The notes under the pieces were generated by a model that did not search any database, was not told where the DNA came from, and saw only the letters and a program-made list of their open reading frames with translations. From NCBI GenBank assembly GCA_002694945.1, contig NZNP01000066.1, positions 1-8,022 of the forward strand: 8,022 bases of DNA, written 5' to 3'. Source of the stretch: Gammaproteobacteria bacterium (GTDB lineage: Bacteria > Pseudomonadota > Gammaproteobacteria > Pseudomonadales > Azotimanducaceae). This document shows, piece after piece, positions 1 to 8,022 of this stretch; positions within the stretch are counted from its first letter, which is position 1; every line of letters starts with the position of its first letter. Position numbers and translations under genes: made by a program.

Positions 1-184
1 CGTAAACATTACCTGACATATCGCACAAGCCATCCTTTGTGCTTCCACTCTTATTTGAACACACGGGCCACGTGCGATCTTTACCACATCCATTTCCTCC
101 ATCATCCATCACCGCGTAACTGCATGAAGCTTTTTCATTGCCCCATGGGTATTTAAAGCTACTCTTTCTGCTTCGCGCCGCATA
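1..184 (-). pseudogene. FGE-sulfatase (SUMF1-type) domain fragment, open at both ends
   Basis: Read on the minus strand with codons starting at 184, 181 and so on, 61 codons stay open to the left edge. They begin YAARSRK and contain KYPWGNE (codons 154-134), then TWPVC, and end in GLCDMSGNVY (codons 31-2). These are the hallmarks of the formylglycine-generating enzyme/SUMF1 fold (FGE-sulfatase family): an EYAAR...YPWGN segment followed by a cysteine-rich stretch and the GLxDMxGNVxEW motif. Members either convert a sulfatase cysteine to formylglycine or serve as other iron- or copper-dependent oxidase or binding modules. Whether this copy keeps the catalytic cysteines cannot be seen, because the C-terminal part is outside the window. 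No start codon or ribosome binding site belongs to it: just upstream in frame is TGA (187-185), and beyond that the DNA encodes a P450 in another frame. I read it as the 3' portion of a separate gene joined to the P450. Family assignment is confident; functional state is unknown. Confidence 0.8.
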
Positions 185-729
185 TCAGGATCATCTGCAC
201 CAAATAATTCTTGAGTGAGTCTCAGCATCATTGGTAAATCCTCTTCAGGCACACCCAGAATCATCATGATGACACGAAGCGGGTACCAAACAGCGACGTC
301 CTTGACGAAGTCAATCTCCTCGCCGCGCTCCAACATGTCATCCACCGCCAGCACAGCCAGTTCTTTTACACGAGTTTCCAAAGGTTTCAAATTAGCTGGC
401 AAGAACCATTCTCGAGTAAGATCTCGGAACTTGCGGTGATCCGGATCATCCATATTAATCAGAGTGCGCAACGCAGGGCCGAAGGAGGATGCAGCAGCCT
501 GCTCCTCTACTTCACGTCTCATCAACACCGAATTCTGAGTATTCAGAAATTTATCGTTCTGGCGCTCGATCTCAATGATGTCCGCATGTTTCGTCGCAAC
601 CCAGAAAGGTTTGTGAGTTTCAGACTCGATAAAAGGTACCGGGTCATGGGTTCTCATATGCGCGGTCAGTGCCTGAAAGTAATCATCGTCAGCTACTGTC
701 GTCGGCTTCACTAAATCGCTGTAATCCAT
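109..729 (-). CDS. Cytochrome P450, N-terminal fragment with out-of-frame tail
   Basis: Bacterial soluble cytochrome P450, N-terminal part only: 206 codons against about 400 for the family. Residues 1-187 look like a genuine P450 start, including the C-helix region INMDDPDHRKFRDL (about 91-104), whose His and Arg normally contact a haem propionate, and the helix E/F region with VIMMILGVPEED (153-164) and LTQELFGADDPD (171-182). It resembles the CYP124/125/142-like group that often acts on sterols, terpenes or fatty acids, but the substrate is not predictable. The I-helix AGxxT, the ExxR pair and the haem-ligand cysteine are all absent. From about residue 187 the sequence stops being P450-like, because the DNA now belongs to an FGE-sulfatase gene in another frame; TGA at 111-109 is simply the first stop met. 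ATG at 729 gives a typical P450 N-terminus, though no strong Shine-Dalgarno precedes it. It is divergent from the luciferase-like gene. It cannot make an active P450 as it stands. Confidence 0.85.
   Translation of the reverse strand: MDYSDLVKPTTVADDDYFQALTAHMRTHDPVPFIESETHKPFWVATKHADIIEIERQNDKFLNTQNSVLMRREVEEQAAASSFGPALRTLINMDDPDHRKFRDLTREWFLPANLKPLETRVKELAVLAVDDMLERGEEIDFVKDVAVWYPLRVIMMILGVPEEDLPMMLRLTQELFGADDPDMRREAERVALNTHGAMKKLHAVTR
165..184 (-). other. Junction between P450 and FGE-sulfatase coding sequence
   Basis: On the minus strand these roughly 20 bases encode P450 residues M-R-R-E-A-E in one frame and the FGE-type YAARSRK segment in another. Both readings fit their families (PDMRREAE after the P450 helix F region; YAAR ahead of YPWGN). 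To the right only the P450 reading makes sense, to the left only the FGE reading. The breakpoint therefore lies within this short shared stretch. Exact limits cannot be fixed without intact homologues of both genes. Confidence 0.65.
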
Positions 730-813
730 AACAAATCATATCTCGAAAATTCCACCATCTTTGCATTTCAGTTACTTAAAAAAAAGAGGATTGCGGCTAC
801 TCGACCGTATCAT

Positions 814-840
814 TTGAAAATTCACATACGCCGTTATAGT
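814..840 (+). promoter_or_regulatory. Candidate sigma70-type promoter for the LLM-GST unit
   Basis: TTGAAA (814-819) and TATAGT (835-840) resemble -35 and -10 boxes with one or two mismatches, but the 15-bp spacer is shorter than the usual 17. Transcription would start near 847, about 68 nt before the ATG. Weak candidate based on motif resemblance only. Confidence 0.3.
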
Positions 841-861
841 AGAGGCGATACTAGCTTTTTG

Positions 862-895
862 GGCTGCGCTGCAGTTCCGTTCAGGCTATGCTGCA
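862..895 (+). repeat. Direct repeat GGCTNNGCTGCA, 22-bp period
   Basis: GGCTGCGCTGCA (862-873) and GGCTATGCTGCA (884-895) match at 10 of 12 positions and start exactly 22 bp apart, about two helical turns, so both copies face the same side of the DNA. The pair sits just before the ribosome binding site of the luciferase-like gene and downstream of the candidate promoter. That placement suits an operator, but it could be chance. Confidence 0.4.
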
Positions 896-903
896 ACTTT
901 TTT

Positions 904-908
904 AAGGG
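904..908 (+). promoter_or_regulatory. Shine-Dalgarno AAGGG for the luciferase-like gene
   Basis: AAGGG at 904-908 lies 6 nt before the ATG at 915. It supports that start over later in-frame ATGs. Confidence 0.6.
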
Positions 909-914
909 CAACTG

Positions 915-1952
915 ATGCAACTGGCTATCGAACTAGGCCGACCGAACCCCAAGAACCTTCAGCTAAATGTCGAATGGGTTCAGCTCGCTGAACGACTTGG
1001 CGTCGCCATTGCCTTTTCAGCAGAGGCCTGGTGGAGTGACGCAGTAACCCCACTGGCATACCTGGCAGACAAGACAAATACCATTAAGCTTGCCACTGGC
1101 ATCATGCAGACAACAGCTCGCACTCCTGCGATGACAGCAATGACCGCTTTGACCTTGCACGACCTCACAGGCGGACGCTTCATACTCGGACTTGGAGCCA
1201 GTGGTCCTCAGGTTGTTGAAGGCTTGCACAGCACCCGTTACCACCCTCCCTTGACAAGAACTAAGGAAACCATAGATATCTGTCGAATGGTGTTTTGCGG
1301 AGAAAAGATCAACTACAACGGCAAAGTTTTTCAGATGCCATTACCTGACAGCGAAGGTAAGAGCCTTCGAATCGATCATGAACCCGCAGATATTCCAATT
1401 TATCTCGCGACTCTCGGACAAAAAGCTCTAGTCTATACAGGGCAGACCGCCCAAGGATGGCTTGGAACCTCATTTTCACCCGATCACCCTGAAGCACATT
1501 TCCAGTATTTATCAGAGGGTGCGAATAAAGCGGGCAGATCACTTTCTGATCTTGATCTTTGCGTTTCAGCTAGAATCGAAATTGGTGAAGATGTCGAGGG
1601 TATGATTGACCGCCGCCGACCCGCTGTCGCTTTTAATATGGGTGGTATGGGTTCTGCCGATACCAATTTCTACAACGATGCCTTTAAGCGAGCAGGTTAT
1701 GCGAATGACGCTAAGGCTATACAATCGTTATGGCTTGCTGGCAAACGGGCGGCAGCCGCCGAAAGGGTTCCGGACGAGATGGTGACTGAATTTCAGATCC
1801 TCGGCACTGAGGAAATGGTAAGAAAGCGCCTGGCACGCTACAAATCAGCCGGAGTTACCACACTTAAATTAGGACTTGATGGCGCCGCTCCCTTAGGTCC
1901 AGCAAGATTTGAATTGCTAGAAAAAATAATCGATATAACAAAGGATATATAG
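915..1952 (+). CDS. LLM-class (luciferase-like) oxidoreductase, Rv3520c-like, probably F420-dependent
   Basis: A 345-residue TIM-barrel flavin/deazaflavin oxidoreductase of the bacterial luciferase family; full length for the group. Diagnostic segments are EAWWSDAVTPLAYLA (37-51), TGIMQTTARTPA (61-72), the GGRFILGLGASGP block (86-98), which contributes to the cofactor phosphate site, and FNMGGMGSADTNFY in the C-terminal half, followed by VPDEMV and GVTTLKLG. This combination closely resembles mycobacterial Rv3520c-type proteins placed in the F420-dependent branch. Substrates of that branch are mostly unknown, and FMN use cannot be excluded. The protein is cytosolic, with no signal peptide or membrane segment. 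Its TAG stop (1950-1952) abuts the ATG of the GST gene, so the two are almost certainly cotranscribed and translationally coupled. Divergent from the P450. F420 dependence is inferred from family membership; no F420 synthesis gene is visible here. Confidence 0.9.
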   Translation: MQLAIELGRPNPKNLQLNVEWVQLAERLGVAIAFSAEAWWSDAVTPLAYLADKTNTIKLATGIMQTTARTPAMTAMTALTLHDLTGGRFILGLGASGPQVVEGLHSTRYHPPLTRTKETIDICRMVFCGEKINYNGKVFQMPLPDSEGKSLRIDHEPADIPIYLATLGQKALVYTGQTAQGWLGTSFSPDHPEAHFQYLSEGANKAGRSLSDLDLCVSARIEIGEDVEGMIDRRRPAVAFNMGGMGSADTNFYNDAFKRAGYANDAKAIQSLWLAGKRAAAAERVPDEMVTEFQILGTEEMVRKRLARYKSAGVTTLKLGLDGAAPLGPARFELLEKIIDITKDI

Positions 1953-2585
1953 ATGAAACTCTACAAGGTTGCTCTCGCCCCCAATCCCACCAAAGTGATG
2001 CTTTATATTGCAGAGCGAGCAGAGCTTGGAACTGACATGGGCATCGAACAGGTTACTGTAAACACCGTAAAGGGTCATCATAAAGAACCGGAACATCTCA
2101 TCCGAAATCCATTCGGTACAGTCCCTGCTCTCGAACTCGACGATGGTACTTTTATCAAAGAGTCATTGGCTATCATTATGTTTCTCGAGCATAAATTCCC
2201 AAACAAAGCCCTCATCACCGGGACGCCTGAAGCACGCGGCCATGCAATAGATATAGAAAGGATAGTTGATCTGCGGATAGCCGGCCCTATGGGAGGGTAC
2301 GGCCATGCCACGAATTCCCCACTGGGCTACCCTGCCGATCCCGAACGTGCAGAGAGCTTAAAAGAGAACATGCAAACACCCCTAAATCACCTCGAGGAGT
2401 TATTGAAAGATAAACGTCCTCTACTCACCGGTGATCAAATATCGTTAGCAGATTGCACACTACAAGCATCACTTCAATTCATTCGCTTTGTCGAAGCCGA
2501 CGTTCTTGGTGACAGGCCTTTGCTACGTGCTTGGGATCAGCGTTATCGGGAGAGACCGGCCGCGCAAGCCGTTCTTAAGTGGTAA
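1953..2585 (+). CDS. Glutathione S-transferase family protein
   Basis: A 210-residue cytosolic two-domain GST of normal length. The thioredoxin-like N-terminal domain (about 1-80) has the cis-proline loop GTVPALEL (cis-Pro58) and the glutathione gamma-glutamyl-binding pair Glu70-Ser71 in IKESLAI. The helical C-terminal domain (about 95-210) carries the N-capping box ISLADCTL (Ser164/Asp167), followed by FVEADVL and a closing RAWDQRYRERPAA. The expected active-site loop after strand 1 reads ALAPNPTKV, with no Cys or Ser at the usual place (Tyr4 lies earlier), so the catalytic residue is unclear. ATG follows the upstream stop with zero gap, and AAGGA (1941-1945) gives a Shine-Dalgarno 7 nt ahead. 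Coupling to an LLM oxidoreductase suggests conjugation, glutathione-dependent isomerisation or removal of a reactive product; the substrate is unknown. Its last 11 bp overlap the convergent nitroreductase gene. Confidence 0.9.
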   Translation: MKLYKVALAPNPTKVMLYIAERAELGTDMGIEQVTVNTVKGHHKEPEHLIRNPFGTVPALELDDGTFIKESLAIIMFLEHKFPNKALITGTPEARGHAIDIERIVDLRIAGPMGGYGHATNSPLGYPADPERAESLKENMQTPLNHLEELLKDKRPLLTGDQISLADCTLQASLQFIRFVEADVLGDRPLLRAWDQRYRERPAAQAVLKW

Positions 2586-3252
2586 GCGTTGAGACAATGT
2601 CTGCAAAATTGTCAAAAGGCTCCCGCGTCATCTTCGCACTGTTTATTTGAGCATCATAATTAGGATAGCCAAACGACAGCCCACATAAAATTGCGTTCTC
2701 TTCAGGAATAGGTAGGAGTTCTTTAACCGGCCCAGGGTAAGTCGCCAGTGCTCCCTGGGGACAGCCCTGAATCCCCCTCTCGACAAACAGCAACAATAAG
2801 TTCTGCAAGAATATACCCATGTCGATTGCATTAGCCCGATTCATGGTCCCCGGGTAAGACAAAAATGCCGCATGAGGCGCGCCAAAGAAGTCGTAATTCC
2901 GCATCATCAGGGCTTCACGGCCGGGTCCATCCGCACGATCAACATCCATCGATGCATAGTATTTGAAACCGCAAGCACGTTGCCGGTCCTTATAAACGCC
3001 CTTAAGCCCGCTACCGCCGGGAGGAAATACTGGATAAGGTTTTATCCCCTCCTCTATTTCTTTACGGATTGCCGCTTTTAACTGCTCCTTTGCGTCTCCA
3101 CTTACTACAACGATATGCCAAGGTTGGGTATTTCCATTAGACGGCGCCAGTTTTGCAAGTTCTATAACTTCTCGGATAGTTACCTCAGGAACAGCTTCAG
3201 GCTTGAACGCCCGGATCGTGCGCTGCGTTTGCACCGCCTTTGTTACATCCAT
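2575..3252 (-). CDS. Nitroreductase family FMN-dependent oxidoreductase
   Basis: A 225-residue single-domain nitroreductase-fold protein of typical length; such enzymes work as dimers with FMN and NAD(P)H and reduce nitroaromatics, quinones or enones. Visible signatures are the N-terminal QRTIRAF (10-16, arginines for the FMN phosphate), LAPSNGNTQPWH (35-46, FMN ring contacts), DMGIFLQNLLLLFVERG (144-160, core helix) with GCPQG just after it, and ILCGLSFGYPN (188-198, phosphate loop). It most resembles nitrobenzoate-reductase-like members, but substrate cannot be read from sequence. ATG at 3252 has AAGGA 6 nt upstream on the minus strand. A 92-nt gap separates it from the upstream PrpD-type gene, so it may be the last gene of that transcript or have its own promoter. 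Its 3' end overlaps the convergent GST gene by 11 bp, leaving no intergenic space for a terminator. Confidence 0.92.
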   Translation of the reverse strand: MDVTKAVQTQRTIRAFKPEAVPEVTIREVIELAKLAPSNGNTQPWHIVVVSGDAKEQLKAAIRKEIEEGIKPYPVFPPGGSGLKGVYKDRQRACGFKYYASMDVDRADGPGREALMMRNYDFFGAPHAAFLSYPGTMNRANAIDMGIFLQNLLLLFVERGIQGCPQGALATYPGPVKELLPIPEENAILCGLSFGYPNYDAQINSAKMTREPFDNFADIVSTLTT

Positions 3253-3267
3253 CTCACGTCCTTAGAT

Positions 3268-3279
3268 AAATTCAGCTGA
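3268..3279. repeat. 12-bp perfect palindrome ATTCAGCTGAAT
   Basis: A perfect inverted repeat without spacer, 15 bp before the nitroreductase start codon. It could be a repressor half-site pair or chance; no recognised regulator motif was matched. The rest of the 92-bp gap (3253-3344) shows nothing convincing. Confidence 0.3.
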
Positions 3280-3344
3280 ATAATCGAGAAACATTAGTGC
3301 CTTGCTAAACAATGAGTCATGGGCTTTTCGGCCTTACAGCAACT

Positions 3345-4640
3345 TTAAAACGAGACGATGTCAGCTTCGGCGAGCCCTTGGATTTTTGCCAACAAATTTT
3401 GCCCATCATGACCTGAATAAGCACAAAGGCTTGAAAATTTCTGCTCAAGTTTCTTTCCCTGCTCATCATAATCGCTTACAGGTTCAGACAGATCCTTGAA
3501 GGCTTCTTGAGCCCGTTGCTGATCATCGATCCAGACAATTTTTGATTGAAAGTTGGAAAGTTTAGTATCGGTTTCAACACTAATCTTCTCAATCAACTTC
3601 TGAACTTCCACACTGCCAATCACCTTATCAACAAAAGTTTCAGGATTTGCCGTATCAATGCCATTGAGAGCAAGCGAGGCTGTGCCTCGAAGACTGAACT
3701 TCCCTTCCAGTCCAGTTTTAGGATCTGGGATACCACAAACATCGAGCAGTGCCGGGTTGACTGTAATGGTCAATGCAGACAGGCGATCAACCTCGAGATC
3801 GGTTCGCAAAGCCAGAACGCTTTCGATCGCTGAGTGCGTCAGGTGGCATGCCGCATGGTACTTAAACAAAGTGCCCAGAATCATCCAATCATCTGCAGCA
3901 GATGCCAGTCTTTCCGTAGCATCATCCGCTGTAGATGCAGCTCCAATAAAACCTTGGTTGCCCATGACCGCGTCAGGGTTGGCCGTGTATCCTGCAGCCG
4001 CTAGTTTTGCGCAAGTAATTCCGCTTTCTGCCGCGTGACCGGGGTGATAAGGCTTGGTCATTGTGCCGAAATTAGCTTTTACACCACTAGCATGGGAAGC
4101 AGCGAGGCCCATAGCAATTGCATACTGAGTCTTTTCAAGGCCTAGCAAGTGCGCCACGGATGCTGTAGCACCAAAGGCTCCGTATGTAGCCGTTGTATGC
4201 CAGCCCCTAGCATAGTGGTCTCTACCCATTGCCCTCGCTACTCTACCTTCCACTTCAACACCAACAACGAACGCTGTAATCAACTGTTTGCCAGTCATCC
4301 CGATTTCTTCAGCGATTGCCAGCGCTGCCGGAAAAACGGGTGCAGTGGAATGGCAATGAGTGCGAGCGCCCGTATCATCATAATCAAGAGCGTGCCCACT
4401 AGCTCCATTCAACAATGCTGCAGTTTGCGCATCCAATTGCAGCTCGCTACCGACCACTGAACAAGAACCAGAACGATGACCAAAAACCTGACGCAAGATC
4501 CCAGCTAGCGGTTCACCGCTGCCAGCGAAAGCACAGCCAAACCAATCGAGAATGCACTGATTTGCCACCTTGATGACCGCATCGGGCAGCTGGTCATACG
4601 TCAAATCCTTGTATTTATCCCAAGCTTGCAAATAATCCAT
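3345..4640 (-). CDS. MmgE/PrpD family protein (2-methylcitrate dehydratase / cis-aconitate decarboxylase superfamily)
   Basis: 431 residues, two domains: an all-helical MmgE/PrpD N-terminal domain (about 1-250) and the smaller C-terminal domain (about 270-430). Known members dehydrate 2-methylcitrate, decarboxylate cis-aconitate (ACOD1/IRG1) or epimerise/dehydrate related tricarboxylates. Conserved active-site positions are visible: HALDYDDT (83-90), His95 in ARTHCHS, His148 in RGWHTTATYG, Lys196 in TKPYHPGHAA, and Lys260/His266/His269 in FKYHAACHLTH. They align with His103, His159, Lys207, Lys272 and His277 of human ACOD1, but most are shared across the superfamily and so do not fix the substrate. 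Start ATG at 4640 has GAGGA about 6 nt upstream. The gene follows the SDR by 12 nt. Absence of prpB/prpC nearby argues against a standard methylcitrate cycle. Role inferred: hydration, dehydration or decarboxylation of a branched or polycarboxylic acid. Confidence 0.88.
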   Translation of the reverse strand: MDYLQAWDKYKDLTYDQLPDAVIKVANQCILDWFGCAFAGSGEPLAGILRQVFGHRSGSCSVVGSELQLDAQTAALLNGASGHALDYDDTGARTHCHSTAPVFPAALAIAEEIGMTGKQLITAFVVGVEVEGRVARAMGRDHYARGWHTTATYGAFGATASVAHLLGLEKTQYAIAMGLAASHASGVKANFGTMTKPYHPGHAAESGITCAKLAAAGYTANPDAVMGNQGFIGAASTADDATERLASAADDWMILGTLFKYHAACHLTHSAIESVLALRTDLEVDRLSALTITVNPALLDVCGIPDPKTGLEGKFSLRGTASLALNGIDTANPETFVDKVIGSVEVQKLIEKISVETDTKLSNFQSKIVWIDDQQRAQEAFKDLSEPVSDYDEQGKKLEQKFSSLCAYSGHDGQNLLAKIQGLAEADIVSF

Positions 4641-4652
4641 TGCTTTCCTCGT

Positions 4653-5396
4653 TCAAATTGCTCGACCACCATCAACATCCAGACAAACCCCAGTTAGAAA
4701 TTTCGCTTCACTCGAGGCAAGAAAAAAGACAGAGTCCGCTACATCTTCGGGCGTGGCACGACGTCCAAGCGGAATACCTGCAATTACCCCAGCTTCCGCT
4801 TCAGGAGAAAGGTTTTGACTGCCAACAGCATTCATATCAAATCCTGTCGGAGCAGATACTGGACACACCGCATTAACCCGAATCTTCGGCGCCAGTTCAA
4901 TCGCCATCGCTTTGGTTAGCGTAACCACAGCTCCTTTTGCGGCGTAGTAAGCAGCTAGGCCCGGTCTCGGGCGCTTAGCCCCGATCGATGAAGTATTGAT
5001 AATAGAACTTCCTTCGGGCATGTGGGGCACACAGTATTTGGCGGCTAGAAAAATACTGCGAACGTTAATAGCCCACATGCTGTCAAATTCTTCCACTTCC
5101 TGTCTCATCATCATTTTCGCCCTGTGCGGAACACCAGCATTTGCACAGAACACATCAATTTTCCCGTAAGCCTCTACCGTGGCCTCCATAAGCGACCGAT
5201 TTCCCTTTTCACTCGAAACATCTAGCTGGAATGGAAGAGCATCCGGTAATTCTGCCGCAACTTCTTTCGCACCTTCGCCGTTCAGATCTGCTACCACTAC
5301 GGAAGCCCCAGCTTCGCCGAATTTTGTAGACATAGCCTGGCCGAAACCGGATGCACCACCGGTTACCACAACGCACTTTCCGGCAAATCTGCTCAT
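4653..5396 (-). CDS. Short-chain dehydrogenase/reductase (classical SDR)
   Basis: A 247-residue classical SDR, normal length, cytosolic. It has the Rossmann cofactor motif TGGASGFG (12-19), Asp37 in VVADLNG, pointing to NAD(H) rather than NADP(H), CANAG (84-88), Asn111 in INVRS, catalytic Ser137 (NTSSIGA) and the Tyr150/Lys154 pair (YYAAK). The C-terminal VDGG turn is present. The usual Pro-Gly after NAVC reads CPVSAPTGF, so the Gly is Val, a variation seen in some SDRs. It would oxidise a hydroxyl to a ketone or the reverse; the substrate is not predictable, although beta-hydroxyacyl or hydroxy-acid intermediates would fit the neighbours. It starts 3 nt after the acyl-CoA dehydrogenase stop without a strong independent Shine-Dalgarno, suggesting translational coupling, and ends 12 nt before the PrpD-type gene. 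Confidence 0.93.
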   Translation of the reverse strand: MSRFAGKCVVVTGGASGFGQAMSTKFGEAGASVVVADLNGEGAKEVAAELPDALPFQLDVSSEKGNRSLMEATVEAYGKIDVFCANAGVPHRAKMMMRQEVEEFDSMWAINVRSIFLAAKYCVPHMPEGSSIINTSSIGAKRPRPGLAAYYAAKGAVVTLTKAMAIELAPKIRVNAVCPVSAPTGFDMNAVGSQNLSPEAEAGVIAGIPLGRRATPEDVADSVFFLASSEAKFLTGVCLDVDGGRAI

Positions 5397-5399
5397 AGT

Positions 5400-6584
5400 C
5401 TACTTACCCATAATCCTGTCTGAGATAATTCTTTGCATAATTTCAGAAGTGCCCTCGAATATCTTTGTTAAGCGAGCATCTCGCCAATAGCGCTCAACAG
5501 GATAATGGGTCGTGTAACCAGCACCTCCCATTATCTGAAGGCACTCGCTTGTCACTCGCTCCGACATCTCCGCAGCAAAATACTTGACCATAGCGGCCTC
5601 TTTGTCAGCTCGCCGACCATTGTCGATTTCAGTACAGACGTGATACATCAACTGTCTTGCGGCTTCGATTTCTGTTGCAGCCGTAGCAATTTTGAAACGA
5701 ATTGACTGGAATTTACCGATAGCGCTGCCGAATTGTTCGCGTTCACTCGCGTAATCAGTCGCCACATTCAACGCGCCCTGAGCTGCTCCAATAGACCGAG
5801 CAGCGGTGTGAGCCCTAGCTACTTCAAGCCCCCTCTGGATGCCCACAAACCCTCCGCCCATAGTTGCAGGACCGGCCCCGTCTTCCGCTGGCGCGTCAAT
5901 GGCGGGCACACGCACATTGTCAAAATGCAATTCCCACGTTTTCCAGCCATGGTAACCAATTTTTGGAATGGGACTGCCCTGAACACCAGCCGGCAATTCA
6001 CCTCTGGGCTTTTCCACAGCGATGCTTTTCATTCCTGCCTGACGGGACTCGCTATCTGACTCGACACGGCAAACAACACTGATGAAATCAGCGCCATCAG
6101 CGAAGGTGCACCAGTACTTGTTGCCATTAATTATCCAATCGCTACCATCTCGAGTTGCACGGCAACTGACGCCGGCCATATCGGAACCGGCATTAGGCTC
6201 TGACATGGCAAAGGCACCCAAATAGTCGCCCATGGCCATACGCGCAATCTTTTCGTCCCGAAGAGGCCCGAAACCTGGCACAGAACGCCAAAACCCATTA
6301 CCTCGAGCAATAATACTGGCCACACTCATCCATCCTCTCGCAAGTTCTTCGGCTATTAAACAGTATTCAAAACAGCCCAGACCTAGCCCACCTTTGTCCT
6401 CGGGAATCGTGATACCAAAGTAACCCATTTCGCCCATTTTATTGATCAACTCACGAGGAATCTGGCCTTTCTCAGGATCGAGATCATTCGCTACAGGCAA
6501 CACCTCAGCTAAGGTAAATTCCCTTGCTGTCCGCTGCATCATGCGACGCTCTTCGTTCATGTATCCTTCGGTCATCTTTTTCAC
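5400..6584 (-). CDS. Acyl-CoA dehydrogenase
   Basis: FAD-dependent acyl-CoA dehydrogenase introducing the alpha-beta double bond in an acyl-CoA, passing electrons to ETF. Length (394 codons) is typical. Numbered from the GTG at 6584: helical N-terminal domain with IPEDKGGLGLG (60-70); FAD-binding signature FAMSEPNAGSD (125-135) and WIINGNKYWCTFADGADF (150-167) in the beta domain; C-terminal domain with SEREQFGSAIGKFQ (280-293), QIMGGAGYTTHYPVER (350-365), and IFEGTSEIMQR (375-385), where Glu377 is in the catalytic-base position of medium-chain enzymes. Start choice is open: GTG at 6584 has only a too-close ATGGA ahead, whereas ATG at 6575 has GGAG (6587-6584) 8 nt upstream and is preferred here, giving 391 residues. 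First gene of the dehydrogenase-SDR-PrpD block, 91 nt after the lyase. Chain-length preference cannot be read reliably. Confidence 0.94.
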   Translation of the reverse strand: MKKMTEGYMNEERRMMQRTAREFTLAEVLPVANDLDPEKGQIPRELINKMGEMGYFGITIPEDKGGLGLGCFEYCLIAEELARGWMSVASIIARGNGFWRSVPGFGPLRDEKIARMAMGDYLGAFAMSEPNAGSDMAGVSCRATRDGSDWIINGNKYWCTFADGADFISVVCRVESDSESRQAGMKSIAVEKPRGELPAGVQGSPIPKIGYHGWKTWELHFDNVRVPAIDAPAEDGAGPATMGGGFVGIQRGLEVARAHTAARSIGAAQGALNVATDYASEREQFGSAIGKFQSIRFKIATAATEIEAARQLMYHVCTEIDNGRRADKEAAMVKYFAAEMSERVTSECLQIMGGAGYTTHYPVERYWRDARLTKIFEGTSEIMQRIISDRIMGK

Positions 6585-6587
6585 TCC
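6584..6587 (-). promoter_or_regulatory. Shine-Dalgarno GGAG favouring the ATG at 6575
   Basis: On the minus strand GGAG is followed by TGAAAAAG (8 nt) and then ATG at 6575. The longer reading from GTG at 6584 would use part of this very site as its start codon, which makes the ATG the more likely start. Confidence 0.5.
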
Positions 6588-6595
6588 ATCTAACC

Positions 6596-6618
6596 GTTGA
6601 TCAACACTTCAATAAGTG
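6596..6618. promoter_or_regulatory. Palindrome plus adjoining short hairpin in the acyl-CoA dehydrogenase leader
   Basis: GTTGATCAAC (6596-6605) is a perfect 10-bp palindrome. Sharing its last base is CACTT-CAAT-AAGTG (6605-6618), a 5-bp stem with a 4-nt loop. Both lie in the 91-bp gap (6585-6675), just upstream of the dehydrogenase start on the minus strand. There is no U-run typical of a terminator. A repressor operator for the downstream block is possible but unproven. No convincing -35/-10 pair was recognised in this gap. Confidence 0.35.
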
Positions 6619-6675
6619 CTCTGTTAACCTCTCAAAATATGCTCAGCTCGAAACAGTACGGAACGTCGAATACAC

Positions 6676-7605
6676 CTATAAGCCGTAAAGTTCAGCAAGA
6701 TCAAGAACATTTGCCATATGACGTACGGTGGCTGCATCAGCGAACTTGCCATCGATCATGACCGCTCCTCGACCAGCAGCGAGCGACTCGTTATAGGCAT
6801 CAGTCATCTTTCTTGCTTCGTCAATCCGATCCTGATTGGGGGTAAAAACATCCTGTGCATGCTCAATCTGCGTAGGATGCAAAGCCCATTTACCCACCAT
6901 GCCAAGGGCCCGAGCCTGCAAACACGATTCTCGATAGGCTTCTAAGTTACTAATATTGGCAAAAGGGCCATCTATGGCATCTATACCGCGAGCCCGCGCA
7001 GCCATCGTGACCCGAAACTTAGCATAGTGGAATACATCACCCGGATACTTGTAATCAGGCCCGTACATGGCTGTAAAATCCAAACCCTGGCTCGCCGAGT
7101 AATCTCCCATACCAAATATCATCGCTTCTAAGCGCGGCGTTGACGCTGCAATCTCCTCAACGTTTTGCATACCTAGCGTTTCCTCAATCAGCAGCTCTAA
7201 ACCTATCTTATCTTTGAGACCAAGCTTCATTTCTAGTTGCGTCAAAAGCTTGTCGCAGAACTGCACATCAGAAGCATCAAAGGGCTTAGTCAGCATGATG
7301 ACATCCAGATTTTCACGAACCCCTTCAACTACCGAAATAATGTCATCATGACACCACTCAGTACCAGTATCGTTAATCCGTACGCATCTAACGGTTTCTC
7401 CCCAATCAAGTTCATTAAGCGCATCAATCACATTCTGGCGAGCACCGACTTTTTGATTAGGGGCGCATGCATCTTCAAGATCAAGAAAGACGTGATCTAC
7501 TCCGCTTTGCGCGGCCTTCTCGATCATCCGCGTGTTGCTCGCAGGGACCGACAACTGACATCGACGGTGCCTCCTAGGCTGCCCATGTTTATTAATCAAC
7601 GTCAC
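6676..7605 (-). CDS. HpcH/HpaI–CitE family CoA-ester lyase (malyl-/methylmalyl-/citramalyl-CoA lyase-like)
   Basis: 309 residues, close in length and motifs to L-malyl-CoA/beta-methylmalyl-CoA lyase (Mcl1). Such enzymes split a 3-hydroxyacyl-CoA by retro-Claisen cleavage (for example methylmalyl-CoA to glyoxylate and propionyl-CoA, or citramalyl-CoA to pyruvate and acetyl-CoA) using Mg2+. TIM-barrel motifs: RCQLSVPAS (15-23), VFLDLEDACAP (39-49), VRIN with Arg76, LELLIEETLGM (136-146) with metal ligand Glu141, FGMGDYSAS (164-172) with metal ligand Asp168, DGPFANISN (212-220), LGMVGKWALHPTQIE (234-248), and Asp290 near the C-terminus in the place of the mobile catalytic Asp. Start is GTG at 7605, strongly supported by AGGAGG 6 nt upstream, which overlaps the end of the MaoC gene; the 10-nt gap implies coupling. 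Pairing with a MaoC hydratase is the classic mesaconyl-/itaconyl-CoA hydratase plus lyase arrangement. Exact substrate is unresolved. Confidence 0.9.
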   Translation of the reverse strand: MTLINKHGQPRRHRRCQLSVPASNTRMIEKAAQSGVDHVFLDLEDACAPNQKVGARQNVIDALNELDWGETVRCVRINDTGTEWCHDDIISVVEGVRENLDVIMLTKPFDASDVQFCDKLLTQLEMKLGLKDKIGLELLIEETLGMQNVEEIAASTPRLEAMIFGMGDYSASQGLDFTAMYGPDYKYPGDVFHYAKFRVTMAARARGIDAIDGPFANISNLEAYRESCLQARALGMVGKWALHPTQIEHAQDVFTPNQDRIDEARKMTDAYNESLAAGRGAVMIDGKFADAATVRHMANVLDLAELYGL

Positions 7606-7611
7606 GTGGTT

Positions 7612-7617
7612 CCTCCT
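7612..7617 (-). promoter_or_regulatory. Consensus Shine-Dalgarno AGGAGG deciding a GTG start
   Basis: On the minus strand AGGAGG (7617-7612) overlaps the TAG stop of the MaoC gene (7618-7616) and sits 6 nt before the GTG at 7605. This is the strongest ribosome binding site in the window. It supports GTG as the lyase start and indicates termination-reinitiation coupling. Confidence 0.75.
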
Positions 7618-8022
7618 AACGTTCTAGCCAGTGGCTCTTTTTCTTGATTAGCGCCGTCCTTTCAACCTCAGCGACCAATTCTTTGTTCTGATTCACACCA
7701 TAATGCTTAAAAACCACGATACCCGCATCCTCACGGTCACTTTCACGCTTTTCGAGCACTTTAGAGTAGGCGTACAACGTATCACCATGAAAAACCATTG
7801 TTTTAAGCTGAATGTTATCAAGACCTAATTCCGCAATGGCGTTTTCAACAGTATCCTGGGACGCAAGCCCAAGCACCAACGAGAAATTAACACCGCCATA
7901 ACAAAGAATCTTACCAAGCGGAGTCTTCGACATCTGGTCTGCGTTGAAGTGACCCTGAGCCGTATTCATAACCATATTGGTAATGTTTACGTTTTCCAGC
8001 TCAGTCATTGTTTTCCCTCGGG
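7616..8022 (-). CDS. MaoC-like hotdog dehydratase/hydratase, N-terminus beyond the window
   Basis: MaoC family (R)-type enoyl-CoA hydratase, similar to mesaconyl-CoA or itaconyl-CoA hydratase-related single-hotdog proteins. The first in-window ATG (8008-8006) is probably not the start: the frame remains open to the right edge, and the preceding codons read RGKT, giving RGKTMTELENVNITN, which matches the conserved internal GRTxTExDN segment of the family. About 20-30 N-terminal residues should therefore lie outside. Counting from that internal Met: NMVMNTAQGHFNAD (11-24) is the active-site helix with His20 conserved and Asn15 where PhaJ-type hydratases have Asp; CYGGVNFSLVLGLA (36-49) is the hotdog helix; VFHGDTLYAYSKVLEKRES (72-90) is the diagnostic strand pair. 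Partner of the downstream lyase (10-nt gap). It likely hydrates an unsaturated dicarboxylyl- or branched enoyl-CoA; substrate not proven. Confidence 0.88.
   Translation of the reverse strand, partial: RGKTMTELENVNITNMVMNTAQGHFNADQMSKTPLGKILCYGGVNFSLVLGLASQDTVENAIAELGLDNIQLKTMVFHGDTLYAYSKVLEKRESDREDAGIVVFKHYGVNQNKELVAEVERTALIKKKSHWLER

Follow-up and report, generated by a model that had tools for sequence, protein, structure and literature searches.

A P450 gene probably cut at codon 188 by a metagenome misjoin to an FGE-sulfatase gene fragment at a contig end

Formation of chimeric contigs through shared k-mers has been described (PMC7299287, available excerpt), and in the excerpted part of a mock-community study (PMC8172020) chimeric sequence between two similar genomes always lay at contig ends. 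The locus analysed here resembles these chimeric contig ends of short-read metagenomes, as the excerpts of both papers present them, in its shared word at the join, its position at a contig end and a sample that is likely strain-mixed. It differs from the mock-community chimeras, as excerpted in PMC8172020, in that those joined two similar genomes, whereas the two sides here look unrelated; moreover, both sides here are coding and their frames overlap, so that the called open reading frame (ORF) looks plausible. A pipeline applied to ocean samples assembles each sample with Megahit and merges with Minimus2 at OVERLAP=100 and MINID=95, according to the available part of PMC5769542. On the protein side, the closest solved structure to the P450 half found here is P450-terp (PDB 1cpt; E 8.6e-37, residues 7-187), from which this half differs in being without the whole haem-binding region. 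We take 1cpt to be CYP108A1.

The window, that is the whole stretch of 8,022 nucleotides analysed, comprises bases 1-8022 of contig C61 (31,374 bp); its right edge falls at the first N of C61, at 8023. The genome to which C61 belongs consists of 146 contigs (3.41 Mb) and is 86.55% complete and 5.32% contaminated. The join between P450 and FGE-sulfatase sequence lies 164 bases from base 1 of C61, near a contig end as in an assembly chimera (Table 1). We conclude that the metagenome assembler very probably misattached a likely foreign piece of an FGE-sulfatase gene, about 164 bases long, to the end of C61 and thereby cut an otherwise ordinary P450 gene at codon 188. On this reading the join is not a biological feature and holds no biological novelty.

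Table 1. Coordinates of features in the window (positions of C61). Among the neighbours at 2575..8008, the nitroreductase alone was named by Pfam scan and the others by eye.
Feature	Position	Strand	Evidence
True P450 coding sequence, residues 1-188 (N-terminal half)	166..729	-	Identity to P0001; 1cpt; 74% to intact G013 orthologue
Shared word at the join, 20-21 bp (deduced), read as P450 or as FGE depending on the frame	165..184 or 185	-	C121 departure left of 165; EWE in homologues vs window stop at 187-185
Apparent FGE-sulfatase domain fragment, 61 codons, cut by contig end, likely foreign	1..184 (1-164 outside shared word)	-	PF03781, homologue searches
False tail of called ORF, residues 189-206 and stop	109..165	-	RVALNTHGAMKKLHAVTR; poor P450 match
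Overlap with last 191 bp of C121 (7735-7925)	165..355	+	182/191 identical, all 9 differences synonymous
Luciferase-like monooxygenase, intact neighbour	915..1952	+	Pfam PF00296 E 1.4e-67
Glutathione S-transferase (GST), intact neighbour	1953..2585	+	Pfam GST_N_2 E 1.6e-9, GST_C E 3.2e-9
Nitroreductase, MmgE/PrpD, SDR, acyl-CoA dehydrogenase, CitE/HpcH-like and MaoC-like neighbours	2575..8008	-	Order as at G013 intact P450 locus

The called ORF (109-729, minus strand) encodes 206 aa. A public full-length P450, P0001, matches this protein at every residue from 1 to 188 (bases 729-166); the two depart at residue 189, where the window has R and P0001 has T. P450 homology extends over the N-terminal half, with 348 distinct PDB sequences matched at E<=1, and no decay was seen in residues 1-188. 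The Pfam p450 model found no match on the 206-aa ORF. The haem-ligand cysteine motif, searched as the pattern we take to define it, was absent from the ORF and present in 119 of the 119 proteins longer than 380 aa among P0001-P0120. The window therefore holds a P450 fragment and not a working P450. At least several near relatives among the listed matches of the protein search are labelled Pseudomonadales bacterium.

Beyond residue 188 the resemblance stops. In a P450 search, all 25 matches besides the window itself ended at query residues 186-193, and these matches, C121 aside, sit in frames of 409-471 codons. C121 and eight full-length relatives that were aligned differ from the window's frame past PDMRREAE, and 219 of 239 listed P450s align no further than residue 193 of the ORF. 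Twenty go further; 17 listed P450s align over at least 8 residues past 188, with a mean identity of 30% there vs 70% over residues 151-188. Searched alone, residues 189-206 gave three matches in the 239 listed P450s (best E 3.4). Judged by these alignments, the called protein is not P450-like past residue 188; it carries 18 false C-terminal residues. These results bear out an earlier note on this DNA, which had placed a break in the middle of the P450 domain and a false tail on the 206-residue protein, and which had named P450 homologues continuing past PDMRREAE in the same frame as the finding that would count against it.

Left of the join, 61 codons of the minus-strand frame 184-2 can be read without interruption; the triplet directly before them, 187-185, is a stop and lies in P450 sequence. 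Pfam PF03781, a model of 255 positions, aligned with this frame over positions 120-186 (E 8e-4), and the score of 19.5 bits stays under the 23.3 set for the whole domain. When the protein collection was searched with a profile, alignment began at residue 1 or 2 of the frame in each of the 120 FGE proteins listed of 7346 (best identity 72%); one of the 120 is the relative used in the profile query. As all 120 listed proteins are clearly homologous, we assign frame 184-2, from its sequence, as a fragment of an FGE-sulfatase domain. Pfam, the contig collection (genome_contigs) and the profile search all matched the left frame, in agreement with its FGE-sulfatase-like character as proposed in the earlier note and against the failure of such searches that the note had allowed for. 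Solved structures searched with the 61-aa piece gave no match, and the piece did not match P0001 (E 0.98).

The FGE fragment is likely foreign to the C61 genome. While the P450 side stands in a gene order like that of G013, a genome of the same genus, relatives of the FGE piece mostly carry labels of other phyla. Organism names on 13 of the 120 listed FGE proteins are Myxococcota, Deltaproteobacteria, Polyangia or Elusimicrobia. Among 234 pattern matches in genome_contigs, 12 loci encode relatives of the piece at 39-65% identity; they are labelled Deltaproteobacteria (6), Elusimicrobia (2), and Myxococcales, SAR324, Calditrichia and Acidobacteria (1 each). No same-genus genome (0/16) matched the piece at E 0.1; among 21 wider relatives there were two matches, one in G031 at E 2.8e-9 and a weak one in G021 at E 0.014. 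No second DNA copy was found in the own genome, where, beyond C61 and the overlap with C121, matches had E 1.1 or worse. Other FGE-sulfatase genes exist there on C11, C15 and C68, and a protein search with the piece at E 0.1 gave none of them. The donor gene was thus found neither in own-genome DNA nor in genome_contigs (at most 65%) nor among the 120 listed of 7346 matches in the protein collection (at most 72%). GC content hardly separates the left tail (46%) from the P450 part (49%), a point against the misjoin.

The extent of the sequence common to both genes can be deduced from C121 and the FGE homologues. Left of 165 the window departs from the P450 sequence of C121; right of 185 stands the stop at 187-185, where homologues have Glu (EWE directly precedes the first residue of the tail in 119/120 listed FGE homologues). 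The shared word would therefore run from 165 to 184 or 185, that is 20-21 bp, in line with the roughly 20 bp common to both genes in the earlier note. The smallest k of common assemblers is 21 by default. The deduced word would be about this size. By a rough count, 10^9 distinct random 21-mers give about 2x10^5 coincidences; shared words of this length are therefore no rarity in a metagenome.

The continuation of the P450 gene is present elsewhere, as expected for an assembly chimera, both at the end of another contig of the same genome and in P0001. Contig C121 (7925 bp) matches the window, without gaps and starting from window base 165, with its last 191 bases, and it continues through the full C-terminal half of the P450 (Pfam p450, 88.3 bits). 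Since all nine differences in the overlap (~5% at the DNA level) are synonymous, the two overlapping sequences are either alleles of a single protein or copies that arose very recently. The C121 half, used as query for a protein search (120 listed of 7982 matches), led to P0001 (409 aa), whose cluster represents 26 sequences and three contigs, the longest of 12,906 bp. P0001 unites both halves, agreeing with the window at 188/188 residues (1-188) and with C121 at 283/284 (residues 126-409). P0001 in one piece was not found in the own genome, neither C61 nor C121 encoding all of it. A census of own-genome P450s gave each half once (C61 and C121), a 66% paralogue on C130 and other matches at 32-33%. 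The C130 paralogue (526-1749) is a whole P450 gene of 409 codons, the 66% being its identity to P0001.

Gene order in relatives also bears on the relation between C61 and C121. In G013, on a contig of 2.46 Mb, MaoC-like, CitE-like, acyl-CoA dehydrogenase, SDR, MmgE/PrpD, nitroreductase and P450 genes stand in the order kept in the window; the luciferase-like and GST genes of the window were not found at that locus. The G013 P450 orthologue is open over 422 codons, and along this one frame the window's half is 74% and the C121 half 83% identical. The other four P450 loci compared (G007, G002, G015 and own C130) have a P450 but not the cluster. The set of genes at 166-8008 of the window, from the P450 through the luciferase-like, GST, nitroreductase, MmgE/PrpD, SDR, acyl-CoA dehydrogenase and CitE-like genes to the MaoC-like gene, looks like a catabolic cluster, of which G013 keeps part. 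Past its P450 half, C121 (1-7069) carries genes that we named by eye as SRPBCC-like, luciferase-like, MATE-like, cupin, AMP-ligase and PhyH-like. These further genes were not found beside a P450 at any of the five loci (G013, G007, G002, G015 and own C130), and relatives of the nearest of them, the SRPBCC-like gene, were located on the same contig as a P450 match in G011 alone, where two contigs carry both, separated by about 61 and 27 kb.

Since the further genes of C121 do not lie beside the P450 at the five loci compared, we considered that C121 might hold a second, nearly identical P450 copy, truncated where that contig stops, rather than the continuation of C61; the FGE tail would be a misjoin here too, so that this reading overlaps with the favoured one. 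The 5% DNA difference in the overlap would also suit a second copy. However, each P450 half occurs once in the genome, the halves meet with an overlap of 191 bp, a single public protein unites them at all but one of the residues compared, and the one P450 match of G013 above 35% identity has much of the context of C61. We regard a second copy as quite improbable.

A real rearrangement is less probable still. It would require that a strain lost the C-terminus of its P450 and that an FGE-like gene of deltaproteobacterial or myxococcal type, gained by horizontal transfer, became joined at codon 188 through a microhomology of 20-21 bp. Such a microhomology is present at the join, and the difference between the C61 and C121 sequences makes it likely that more than one strain was present. 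Yet the join lies only 164 bases from the contig end, a second DNA copy of its tail was not found in the genome, nor a match in any of 16 genomes of the genus, the identical N-terminal half runs on elsewhere as a whole P450 (P0001), and residues 1-188 show no decay. Furthermore, the P450/FGE junction occurs in none of the 120 matches listed of 134, a set from which the window's own protein is also absent. A real fusion protein was rejected, the two frames being different and the called ORF having no FGE residues beyond the join.

The other end of C61 has a like layout, which speaks further against rearrangement. The 1574 bp with which C94 ends (C94:26159-27732) recur in reverse orientation, at 99.6% identity, as C61:29527-31100. 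C61 departs from C94 at 31,101, and its final 274 bp have a GC content of 29% vs 55% before. This tail encodes a SOUL haem-binding domain (PF04832, 93.3 bits), whereas C94 past the departure point carries a different open frame, hydrolase-like by eye. SOUL genes occur in 13/16 same-genus genomes, at 32-43% identity to the piece on C61, and the SOUL tail need not be foreign; its foreignness rests on GC content and on the departure from C94. A second SOUL piece, 37% identical to that of C61, stands at the very start of another contig of the genome (C88:25-222). A like layout at both ends of C61 makes an assembly cause far likelier than two rearrangements. The earlier note had held rearrangement and misjoin to be equally likely; this balance no longer stands, misjoin being strongly favoured by the contig end, the P450 half on C121 that diverges from the window at base 165, the whole P450 in P0001, the tail lacking a second DNA copy in the genome and a match in the 16 genomes of the genus, and the like layout at the other end.

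How the misjoin arose can be outlined tentatively. Strain variation in the sample, as between C61 and C121 (5%, all synonymous), would have broken the true path in the assembly graph. A word of about the smallest k, shared by chance, may then have led the extension of the contig end into the gene of another organism, and the overhang of 164 bp would have kept C61 and C121 apart when contigs were later merged. With respect to the Megahit and Minimus2 pipeline, as given in the excerpt of PMC5769542, both the C61/C121 overlap (191 bp, 95.3%) and the C61/C94 overlap (1574 bp, 99.6%) are within its limits yet remained unmerged, and overhanging tails might have blocked merging of C61 with both contigs. 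Isolated Ns in C61 likewise fit the merged consensus of that pipeline as excerpted. Derivation of this genome from a pipeline like that of PMC5769542, known here from its excerpt, is a guess from features of the genome.

The misjoin bears on annotation in two ways. A chimeric contig end can hide inside a plausible ORF, in this case a called 206-aa P450 fragment, and a domain search would assign the genome an FGE-sulfatase gene of a type found in no same-genus genome searched. The checks that pointed to it can be made without reads: overlap within the own genome, a whole homologue elsewhere, absence of the tail from the genus and the state of the other contig end.

Further contig features concern the assembly as a whole. 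C61 contains 57 isolated Ns, all in 8023-18069; they fall at codon position 3 in 27 cases, position 1 in 10 and position 2 in 6, and 14/57 lie outside frames of at least 150 codons. Ns are also present in 17 of 20 other contig starts. The isolated Ns in C61 suggest that contigs of several strains were merged into one consensus. For 20 contigs picked by number, GC content over the first 800 bases gave a mixed picture with no clear pattern. At C10:1-300, GC is 0.34 and 0.38 in the first 200 bases and then 0.60, and this is possibly another chimeric contig start.
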